Source of the DNA: Propionivibrio limicola
GTDB taxonomy: Bacteria > Pseudomonadota > Gammaproteobacteria > Burkholderiales > Rhodocyclaceae
Assembly: GCF_009469695.1 (NCBI RefSeq)
Contig: NZ_SSSR01000006.1
Location: forward strand, 1-64,000
Reading direction: 5' to 3'
DNA: 64,000 nucleotides
The notes below the pieces were generated by a model. That model ran no database searches. It was not told the origin of the DNA and saw only the letters and a program-made list of their open reading frames with translations. How positions within the stretch are numbered: the stretch's first letter is position 1; every line of letters begins with the position of its first letter. Both the position numbers and the translations under genes were made by a program. This document shows, piece after piece, positions 142 through 5,077 of the stretch.

Positions 142-1055
142 ACCCCAAGCAAGTGGGCGAAATCGTCTACATGATCGGCAACGGACGCGGCAAGCAGCGA
201 GCCAGCCGGACAGGATCGGCGCGGGGCGTGGTGAGCTGGCGCTGTTTCTTGTTGTCCAGTGGCGAACGGACGATAGCCACAACGATGGCCGAAGGCGGAC
301 ACCGGGCAAAGGCAGGGCAAGCGGTGCGCCTTCTCGACATTCCCGTGACAGGAGCTTTCGGCGCGTGGGACACCCTGCATGATTCACCAACGGCGGCGGC
401 ATTCTCTGACGCGATCAAGCAGGCGTCGGCGCGGCAACATGGAGTTGTTGGGCGATCCTTTCTTGAAAAACTGACCAACGACGACCGCAACTTTTGCCAC
501 TTGCTGGAAGAGTTCAAGAATCTACCGCTGTTCGCAACGGATGGAATCGAAGGGCAGGATAAACGGGCGGCGGGCCGGTTCGCACTGATCGGTCTGGCTG
601 GCGAATTGGCGACCGAATACGGGCTAACCGGCTGGGAAGAAGGCGCGGCGATCCATGCGGCGGCGGAAGGCTTCAACCTGTGGCGATCTATGCGCGGCAA
701 AGGCAACGACGAGAAGCGCCAGATTGCCGAGAAGGTATCAGGCTTCGTTGAGCGACACGGCGACGGGCGCTTTTCCGATGCTGACGCGACCGTAGAGATT
801 CAAATTCGTGATCGGGCGGGCTGGTGGCGTGACGATGCCCAAGGCCGTGAGTATCTCTTCACTGCCGACGGAATGCGTGAAGCCTTGAAGGGCTTTGACT
901 TCAACCGGGCGCTCGACGTGCTGCAGGAGCTTGGCGCATTGCCAAAACCGGGGGCGGACGGCAAGCGGGCGCGATCATTCCGAATCGGCGGACGGGTGGC
1001 AAAGCTGTATGCAATCAAACCCGACAAGCTGGCGGGGGGTGAGCATGGCGCTTGA
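142..1055 (+). pseudogene. DUF927-domain protein, 5' end removed by IS insertion
   Basis: The readable frame begins at the IS border as PKQVGEIVYMIGNGRGKQ and runs about 300 residues to the stop at 1053-1055. The piece around GNGRGKQRASR, followed by a strand-helix segment ending in a small tail, resembles the C-terminal part of DUF927 proteins. These are primase/helicase-like proteins common on integrative elements and prophages, and are normally much longer. The GTG at 153 could restart translation but has no clear ribosome-binding site and lies within the domain. Its end overlaps the start of the next gene (1045), as expected for an element operon. The N-terminal part would lie beyond the IS. 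Confidence 0.65.
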
Positions 1056-1524
1056 TTCTTTGCTGGCATCGTTAAAAAACGGGGTTACAGAGGTTACACG
1101 GGTTACGGCCTGTAACGGCAAGGCTTTGCGCTGTAACCCCGAAGAAAAACCACAGGTTACACGGGTTACAACACCCGGAAGGCGGCGCGACTTTGTAACC
1201 CCTGTAACCCCGTGTAACCCGGCAGGGGTTACGCTGGAACCCTTGCCAATACTGGCTGTGCCCTCTGTAACCCGTGTAACCCCGGAAATAATCAATGTCG
1301 GAGCCAGTACGCAAGAACACAAGGCCGCGATCATCTCGCCATTGTCGGAAGCCTCAAACGACATTCAGCACGATGACGACGACCGGCGCTTCTGTAGCCA
1401 ATGCCTGAACCTGCATGGGAGCGTTTGCAGCGTCGCCTGTCCCGGTGGGCTGGTATCGGCGTCAAAGGGTTATCGGCCTGTGCTTGACCTGCTACACCGA
1501 TGTTCTGGATTCACGACGAACTGA
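1045..1524 (+). CDS. Small element-borne protein with Val-Thr repeats and Cys-rich tail
   Basis: A 159-residue protein starting MALDSLLASLKNGVTEVTRV, overlapping the upstream DUF927 frame by 11 bp. Residues about 13-80 are rich in VT dipeptides. The C-terminus has a cysteine cluster (FCSQCLNLHGSVCSVACPGG, later RCSGF) that may bind zinc. Similar small proteins are, from my general knowledge, often found after DUF927 genes on betaproteobacterial elements; their function is unknown to me. The DNA for the VT stretch contains 13 GGTTAC/GTAAC motifs in both orientations, and three of them are read as Cys-Asn instead of Val-Thr, so the DNA motif may matter more than the peptide. Confidence 0.7.
   Translation: MALDSLLASLKNGVTEVTRVTACNGKALRCNPEEKPQVTRVTTPGRRRDFVTPVTPCNPAGVTLEPLPILAVPSVTRVTPEIINVGASTQEHKAAIISPLSEASNDIQHDDDDRRFCSQCLNLHGSVCSVACPGGLVSASKGYRPVLDLLHRCSGFTTN
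1083..1281. repeat. Cluster of 13 GGTTACA/TGTAACC motifs inside a coding region
   Basis: GGTTAC starts at 1083, 1092, 1101, 1155, 1164 and 1227. GTAACC starts at 1133, 1195, 1204, 1214, 1267 and 1276, and GTAACG at 1112. Neighbouring copies are mostly 9-10 bp apart, close to one helical turn. The motif is used in both orientations and in two reading frames. Confidence 0.9.
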
Positions 1525-1532
1525 CGATCAAC

Positions 1533-1557
1533 AAGCCGGAGACGATCCGGCTTTTTT
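1533..1557 (+). terminator. Rho-independent terminator after the element gene
   Basis: AAGCCGGA (1533-1540) pairs with TCCGGCTT (1546-1553) around a 5-nt loop and runs into a T-tract, nine bases after the upstream stop codon. Confidence 0.85.
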
Positions 1558-2150
1558 GTGGCTGTAGTTCCTGCTGAGTCATAAGGACACACACGGGAAC
1601 GGCGGCGATGCCTTCATGGCGTGGGATTGCCGAATGGGTAGGGGCCGTCAAAAGGCTAGACGACAGAAAGCAGTTACCGACTGGTTCCGTTCGCTCGCAA
1701 TAACCTGTAGTTTTAGGCAGGGGGTAGGGACCCGAAAAAGTCTGGAATCCCCAGAAATGTAAACCGCTCGGTATCTCACGCGCAGAAAAAATCCCCTTTT
1801 CAAAAGAAATCAAAAGGCGCTTTAACCGCCTTGCACGGCAAGGGTTTGGCCGGTATTTGATTGGGCGAGAGAATCAGCAGCAAATGGGCTGTTTTCCTGT
1901 GCCTGCCAGCGGAGCCAATACTACGAAGCGTAGAAAGCAGATTTGGGCGACGTCAAAGAAAAGATCGACGGTATGGTTCCTGTTTCGCTGGGCAGAGGTT
2001 GGGCAAGGATGGCATTATTCGGGGTCACTTCAAATTGGTGTGCCCAAATGTGTGCCCATGTCGAAGTTATTGATTTTTAAAACCTAGCAACGGCAAGGCT
2101 TTGCGCTGGTTCGCTAGATTCTGCATCGGAAGCCCGTTTAACGTCGCACC
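1558..2150. other. Gene-poor border of the integrative element
   Basis: I see no convincing gene here. The short open frames around 1857-2087 and 1511-1813 have no recognisable motif and poor start sites. The segment carries a second copy of a 20-bp sequence (2089-2108, AACGGCAAGGCTTTGCGCTG) that also occurs at 1114-1133. The change from element to ordinary chromosome probably falls before the TSUP gene at 2151, but I cannot locate an attachment site with confidence. Confidence 0.5.
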
Positions 2151-4722: not shown

Positions 4723-5077
4723 ACGATTCCTTGCCGCCCGTAATCTGGAGGCTGACCTGATTCGGGGCGCAAATGGCGATCTCTCCCGGCTGTTCCAGCC
4801 ACCCTTGGCGGACGCAGTATTGATGTGGTCCGGGATCGGAAACGACGCGCACCCGGCGCTTTTCCACGGCAATTTTCGTCATGCCCAGCGGGCCGGGCAC
4901 TTCGATCGTCTTGTCGCGGGAAAGATCGAGTTCGGCGAAGACTTCGCCGGATTTTTTGACGACGACTTTCTCGGCGCTGCCGCCGTGCCAGGCCAGCGGG
5001 AAAGAAAGGATGCACAGCGCCAATCCAAGCACAGCGAGCAGCCAGTCGCCGGGTTTGAGCAGCGACAGCCAGTGCAT
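4703..5077 (-). CDS. NusG domain II-containing protein
   Basis: A 124-residue protein with one N-terminal membrane helix (about residues 12-33) followed by an exported domain of roughly 85 residues of the NusG-domain-II type (DUF1312). The end of the domain is seen in HQYCVRQGWLEQPGEIAICAPN, with two conserved cysteines. Proteins of this kind often sit beside a Gx transporter, as here, and probably work with it at the outer face of the inner membrane; the precise role is unknown. The ATG at 5077 touches the rapZ stop codon by one base, which fixes the start. A longer frame lacks support. Confidence 0.8.
   Translation of the reverse strand: MHWLSLLKPGDWLLAVLGLALCILSFPLAWHGGSAEKVVVKKSGEVFAELDLSRDKTIEVPGPLGMTKIAVEKRRVRVVSDPGPHQYCVRQGWLEQPGEIAICAPNQVSLQITGGKESYDSLSY

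Follow-up and report, generated by a model that had tools for sequence, protein, structure and literature searches.

The analysis described here identifies, with high probability, a dense array of short DNA words, carried inside a small gene at the end of a disrupted rep gene, as the origin of replication in a small PICI-type (phage-satellite) element. The array lies at 1083-1281 of the window, that is, of the whole stretch analysed, which takes up 64 kb at the start of contig C53, and consists of 13 GTTAC/GTAAC words read directly in the sequence: 12 are copies of GGTTAC on one strand or the other, and the 13th is GTAACG at 1112. In the whole 64-kb window, GGTTAC occurs 19 times on both strands together, against 7.6 expected by shuffling, and the array has a score of 11.8, whereas none of 20 dinucleotide shuffles exceeds 3.8. 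The preliminary description had counted thirteen copies in both orientations, mostly 9-10 bp apart; our recount agrees, with six words in + and seven in - orientation, start-to-start distances of 9, 9, 10, 21, 23, 9, 30, 9, 10, 14, 39, and 9, and a spacing of 9-10 bp in 7 of the 12 intervals. The features are as follows.

1-145, no strand: terminal part of an IS21-like insertion, at the contig end; the border and the family name are by eye and presumptive
153-1055, + strand: 3' part of rep (end of DUF927 and C-terminal winged helix), severed from the 5' part by the IS
771-1037, + strand: C-terminal winged helix of Rep, residues 207-295, as predicted in the AlphaFold2 model
972-1016, + strand: predicted wing hairpin, residues 274-288, holding columns 275 and 282
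1045-1524, + strand: small gene, 159 aa (1045-1521) plus stop, containing the whole putative origin
1083-1169, + strand: putative left half-origin, sites + + - + + at 1084, 1093, 1133, 1156, and 1165, gaps 9/40/23/9
1102 (+) and 1112 (-): extra sites in the left half-origin
1117-1127, - strand: mirror of the spacer box in the left spacer, AAAGCCTTGCC on this strand, read from the sequence
1170-1194, no strand: gap between the half-origins, 25 bp, AT 0.36, not AT-rich
1195-1281, + strand: putative right half-origin, sites - - + - - at 1195, 1204, 1228, 1267, and 1276, gaps 9/24/39/9
1214 (-): extra site in the right half-origin
1236-1256, + strand: spacer box GGAACCCTTGCCAATACTGGC in the 39-bp spacer, 16/21 identical to the EcCICFT073 origin box
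2117-2131, + strand: attR core GATTCTGCATCGGAA, 15 bp, common to the mnmE 3' end on contig C3 (4780-4794)

Read by start-to-start distances, the array resolves into two mirrored five-site modules, 9/40/23/9 |30| 9/24/39/9, corresponding to the mirrored two sets of iterons of a PICI-type origin, and its first site lies about 30 bp past the rep stop, immediately 3' of rep as in such origins. The origins of GN-PICIs are described as located 3' of rep, with two iteron sets flanking an AT-rich region (Fillol-Salom 2018, PMC6092414). For EcCICFT073, colonies are reported to have grown at the restrictive temperature when the plasmid carried both rep and ori; the rep mutant yielded none, and deletion of ori significantly lowered their number (PMC6092414). 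The EcCICFT073 origin, in which the word TCTACC/GGTAGA was picked by eye, has the site spacing 9/46/22/11/9 |31| 11/22/46/9. Like the array in the window, it stands immediately 3' of rep and comprises two mirrored modules with 30-31 bp between them, its left module having the layout of the left half-origin; it differs from the window in its long gaps (46 versus 39-40 bp), in an extra site in one module, in the opposite sense of the GG...CA words within the modules, and in its location between annotated genes, whereas the window array is in-gene. Because the Rep of EcCICFT073 is of the D5_N/DUF5906 type and that of the window of the DUF927 type, the layout is common to two Rep types. No AT-rich region is found between the iteron sets of the window, where the AT content is 0.36 in the middle and 0.38 and 0.41 in the spacers, and the array is therefore called a putative variant that would work like a PICI origin. 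The six other whole origins measured have a middle AT content of 0.71 (L129) or 0.54-0.69 (L174, L175, L206, L211, and L215) and a right-spacer AT content of 0.62-0.74.

Relatives were collected from a class-level sample of 185 genomes, 15 of them (own included) with a DUF927 match, from GTDB genomes (80 of 154 loci taken in), from IMG/VR (33 and 66 loci, two common to both), and from plasmid and phage records (50 and 5 with a match, 8 of the 55 used). Left out before counting were 29 of 64 new loci, which look like near-copies, L079, L026, and L028, which are on the same contigs as L082 and L127, and L040, which has no tblastn match; for L047, the end assigned to rep lies beyond the stop codon, so that its positions are shifted, and the match end of L078 is 6 bases too far in the same frame. 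Among the 168 loci used, the sequence of 163 includes the stop codon and a further 350 bp, and reduction to below 90% identity left 133, the window included; a word was given to 94 of these 133, in 17 cases with the help of the layout, and the layout-free assignment covers 77 loci. When the top word cluster of the whole locus was located without regard to genes, it fell at -150 to +1500 of the rep stop in 98/168 loci, inside the rep ORF in 25 (18 centred at -1725 to -1954), and elsewhere in 45. A dense two-orientation array above all 20 shuffles was present at -60 to +400 of the rep stop in 92 of the 133 non-redundant loci and lacking there in 41, compared with 16/132 and 14/116 for control stretches, which beat the shuffles about 12% of the time versus 5% expected; an array score of 6 or more was reached by 75/133 loci versus 5/132 and 0/116 controls.

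The layout is kept across these relatives while the word and the encoded peptide (VT, DT, GT, and AT) turn over. Oriented words include GGTTACA, CGTAACA, GGTATCA, GGGAACA, GGCAACA, GGTGACA, TGTCACA, GGTTTCA, and TGGGACA, and the distance between same-orientation neighbours is most often 9 bp (238 cases), followed by 10 bp (38 cases). With words assigned layout-free, the five-site pattern 9/24/39/9 occurs downstream of rep in 37/77 loci, against a mean of 0.2 and a maximum of 2 in 30 shifted-gap controls. This kept layout with a changing word supports the earlier proposal of iteron-like sites, carried in a gene, for a protein of the element. On a tree of 68 Reps, the fewest word changes are 29; the window groups with L101, L107, and L108, all three outside the split class (see below), in a clade with support of 100/98, and its nearest neighbours outside this clade are split elements, the forks between being weakly supported. 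An IMG/VR locus with the same word GGTTACA (L049) has its sites downstream and in-gene, the strict layout fitting the right module only. A three-copy pattern of the window word was found, among 300 genomes of the order, in the own genome only, as is expected if the word differs between elements. Mirrored 9/39/24/9 modules may permit the origins of DUF927 satellites, perhaps also of D5-type ones, to be found from sequence alone.

The small gene that contains the array begins with an ATG 8 bases ahead of the rep stop codon (1053-1055) and follows a plan of a conserved start MxLxxLLxxL, the origin as a linker, and a Cys-rich C-terminal domain. In 59 of 94 loci, an ORF of at least 60 aa from the rep stop takes in 80% or more of the sites, 34 of these 59 starting with M[AGS][LS]; in others, for example L129, L156, L174, L175, L206, L211, and L215, no sites lie in such an ORF. 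The Cys-rich domain of the window recurs in 7 relatives at E 0.01 or better, with codon-position differences of 105/118/183 over 311 codons. Judged by these sequence characteristics, the small gene is a real gene. Its protein matched no Pfam family at the family cut-off (best E 0.057) and nothing in PHROG or NCBIfam at E 0.01; searches of plasmids by repeat-only blastn (distant) and small-protein tblastn gave no match, and a small-protein scan of the genome contigs confirmed 0 of 76 candidates. In the small genes of L084, L094, L101, L109, L111, and L127, the same start is joined, by eye, to different C-terminal modules, as would be seen if domains were exchanged at the origin linker.

Within this gene, Val-Thr is the translation of ten words and Cys-Asn that of the other three (1112, 1133, and 1214), the same as first reported. 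All ten Val codons of the Val-Thr pairs are GTT or GTA, which had been regarded as poor choices and indeed amount to 12.6% of the codons used for Val by seven chromosomal ORFs in the window (P ~1e-9 for 10/10). If the Val-Thr repeat were selected for the small protein, with the DNA word as a by-product, most words would be expected in one frame of a real gene, and the small gene is real and phase 0 accounts for 289 of the 424 sites that lie in genes; this reading is nevertheless very improbable, since more than one frame is used in 41 of the 59 in-gene arrays (all three in 15), the ten Val codons of the window are all rare ones, the arrays of the seven loci named above lie outside such an ORF, and the peptide follows the word, GTTAC/GTAAC giving mainly VT, GTATC DT or VS, GTTCC GT or VP, and GTTGC AT, so that DT, GT, or AT replaces VT where the word differs. 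Relatives retaining Val-Thr with free codon choice would have spoken for a protein repeat; the relatives examined, in a non-systematic look, show the opposite pattern. The claim that the DNA word is under selection has held: by the arrays that recur after rep in relatives, by the peptide that follows the word, and by its frame use, the word is selected as DNA. Such proteins would thus contain linkers whose sequence is set by a replication origin, not by protein function, which would account for their odd Val-Thr, Asp-Thr, and Gly-Thr repeats.

The Rep encoded next to the array is, by profile comparison, a member of the SaPIbov1 Rep/Cch helicase family. DUF927 (PF06048) is matched at 5.5e-85 by the 5' piece on contig C3 and at 7.7e-6 by the window piece, and a profile of 12 relatives, the window not among them, matched among PDB sequences SaPIbov1 Rep (8TCH, 6e-43) and SCCmec Cch (5DGK, 1.7e-29), with no other PDB match at E 0.1. 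The AlphaFold2 model of the window part of Rep has a mean pLDDT of 80, with the winged helix mostly above 90 (88-96 over residues 201 to 290), and Foldseek placed 8TCH and 5DGK first (E 1.2e-3 to 2.9e-3, probability 1.0, TM 0.33-0.41), matches that are weak though top-ranked, none reaching E 0.001 and the TM-scores being low over the model. The element Rep thus resembles SaPIbov1 Rep and Cch in profile and C-terminal fold and differs from them in its fusion to PriCT_2 and Toprim and in an adjoining word that varies by element. SaPI Rep is described as recognizing iterons directly downstream of its own gene through its C-terminal domain (PMC7581432), and the C-terminal winged helix of the DUF927 protein is likely to be the binder of the word, for which it is a putative candidate on the following grounds.

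Among pairs of equal helicase identity in 68 Reps, the column that best tracks the word is 282, followed by 275, out of 300 compared; half of the ten best columns (5) fall in the wing 274-288 (P 3e-5), a link to be read as an association, since the Rep pairs are non-independent. With stricter words (layout-free and strand-merged; 53 Reps), 275 and 282 are still the top two, but the wing holds only 3 of the top 10 (P 0.01). By plain mutual information, column 275 ranked first and 282 third, but the average excess in the winged helix (0.193) did not surpass that in the helicase part (0.190); the identity-matched test was run after mutual information because phylogeny inflated many columns. The specificity of initiator for origin may thus offer a candidate code, with many natural words and two candidate wing residues.

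The next Foldseek match after 8TCH and 5DGK is TcpK, a relaxosome winged-helix protein solved with oriT DNA, which would suit an array serving as an oriT transfer site or a parS-like partition site for a protein of the element. Such a role is barely credible: no relaxase or partition gene was recognized among the integrase gene, the 95-aa regulator-like gene, rep, and the small gene, and the layout is that of a replication origin. The accompaniment of Rep by arrays has no bearing on this alternative, the loci having been collected by Rep. Of the three functions first envisaged for the word-binding protein, replication is by far the best supported, because the gene just 5' of the array encodes a helicase of the SaPIbov1-Rep type and the array has the two-module layout of the tested EcCICFT073 origin.

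The remainder of the element is found on contig C3, at the edge of which the other rep piece (85-2106, - strand) encodes PriCT_2, Toprim_3, and DUF927. Upstream of it are the gene for a 95-aa regulator-like protein and that for a tyrosine integrase (PF00589, 7.8e-25), which adjoins mnmE; together with the core shared by attR and mnmE, the element thus has the tyrosine integrase and attachment repeats of a PICI. The 95-aa protein, considered as a possible AlpA-type regulator of a PICI, has no Pfam match at E 0.1 and only weak resemblances, to a PHROG regulator (E 0.007) and to RepC_IncLM (E 2.6e-4, below the cut-off), and no capsid or packaging gene was recognized among the C3 ORFs looked at and the four element proteins scanned. 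The two parts together make up a small integrative element, with about 4.7 kb on C3 (85-4794) and 2 kb in the window, the IS not counted. Very small size and the combination of integrase, regulator, and primase without capsid genes are also found in PICMI, the model of which needs AlpA, a DUF3987/DUF5906 primase, and a fis site (PMC10803314); the element has PriCT_2, Toprim_3, DUF927, and an mnmE site instead. The C3 piece, which includes the Toprim-DUF927 linker, contains no GGTTAC array. Because the IS splits rep, the window copy is probably unable to replicate alone and would need help in trans.

In other relatives, the putative origin is divided between two genes. The mirror pattern 9/39/24/9 occurs downstream of rep in 16 of 94 loci and in the Toprim-DUF927 linker of rep in 21, and never in both places (0/94, both being visible in 89); with words assigned layout-free, the numbers are 16 and 15, and the unmirrored pattern was found in 0 of 73 rep linkers. 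The left half of the split relatives thus lies about 1.9 kb upstream, within the rep linker, in an open rep frame in 20 of the 21, and the linker peptides likewise follow the word (VTGVT, VSGVS, VPGVP, and GTGGT). Of these 21 loci, 15 have a strict right half after rep and 19 have their downstream sites inside the next gene; the median number of downstream sites is 6 with a linker module (21 loci) versus 10 (59 loci). The split or whole state requires at fewest 6 changes among 49 classified Reps, with 19 unclear ones left out. It is probable that the origin is a mirrored, two-part one, and that the stretch of its initiator gene encoding the helicase can come to lie between the two halves, and we likewise consider it a good probability that origin and initiator keep rewriting the linkers of two proteins, with word turnover going with two wing residues. 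Split origins would provide a clean test of the maximum distance between two helicase-loading sites.

In the favoured reading, which is held to be very probable, each GGTTACA serves as an iteron for the DUF927 Rep, whose C-terminal winged helix would bind it. This Rep would be an AAA+ helicase that loads itself and has PriCT_2 and Toprim primase domains in the same chain. In the predicted mechanism, which would take the observed array through binding, oligomer loading, melting, and replication, each mirrored five-site half-origin would seat one Rep oligomer (hexamer), and two helicases would be loaded head to head, open the DNA, and unwind it outward, their recruitment and direction being presumed; the Toprim part of Rep would do the priming. 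The putative origin is read through as the linker of the next gene, the DNA word dictating a Val-Thr-rich peptide that would be tolerated, and sister elements have the left half-origin in the Toprim-DUF927 linker of rep instead. This arrangement is worth comparing with that of phage P4, in which ori and crr, two separated cis sites, are bound by alpha, a primase-helicase with a C-terminal winged helix; P4 resembles the split relatives in having two separated cis sites and one primase-helicase, and its Rep family differs. In lambda too, the iterons of the initiator are written in a gene, but as four 19-bp iterons in the middle of O, its initiator gene (PMC3985674), whereas those of the window are in the next gene and those of split relatives in rep and the next gene. 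In the portions of the PICI literature available, we found no description of an origin inside one gene or split over two; what appears to be new is thus that the putative origin lies in coding sequence, that it can be split, and that the word varies together with the wing residues and the linker peptides.

The array might instead be a transcription operator or silencer, regulating rep itself or the downstream gene. Iteron arrays of initiators often repress their own gene as well, the array is near the start of the downstream gene, and a sequence like the spacer box precedes a probable alpA (named by eye) in L096; still, an operator and not an origin is distinctly unlikely, considering that the array is 3' of rep and away from the rep promoter, that its two mirrored modules are laid out like those of EcCICFT073, the origin of which has a published test, and that the half within rep in the split form is far from the rep start. 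The spacer box motif GAAAGCCGCGCCATTACTGGC is matched at 16 or more of 21 positions on the same strand in 18 of 94 loci (16 in the window) and on the other strand in 5, none of 1880 shuffled-motif trials reaching 16 (maximum 15), although the motif was picked after the likeness had been seen and many of the 18 loci are close kin. A reverse-strand match of 16/21 was also scored in the window. The box is present at L229:14185-14205, at 1236-1256 of the window, and at L096:8870-8890, in origins of different Rep types; the copy ahead of alpA in L096 is a second one (4730-4750, 3 mismatches) and hints at a regulatory RNA or a protein target.

A stem-loop in the 39-bp spacer was considered and dropped, the best pairing being 0.53 versus a shuffle mean of 0.48 and maximum of 0.54 (gap 39); a set of 5 sequences with gap 41 gave 0.63 versus a shuffle maximum of 0.60. 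No RNA family was found at the array in window 900-2150, and microRNA matches at the EcCICFT073 origin were sub-threshold only and taken as chance. The 20-bp segment 1114-1133 in the left spacer has an exact copy at 2089-2108 (+), just inside attR, and the 16-bp core of this repeat occurs in the own genome at these two places only. L030 (2708-2931) and L032 (2589-2874, both in rep-oriented coordinates) also have dense word arrays at a distance of over 7 kb upstream of rep; in L030, the upstream word is GTAAAC versus GGGACAA downstream, and the upstream array may belong to a second replicon. Finally, the DUF927 rep-ori stretch of L175 matches 464 of 5426 complete E. coli genomes, 446 of them at 95% identity or more, and all of these matches are chromosomal.
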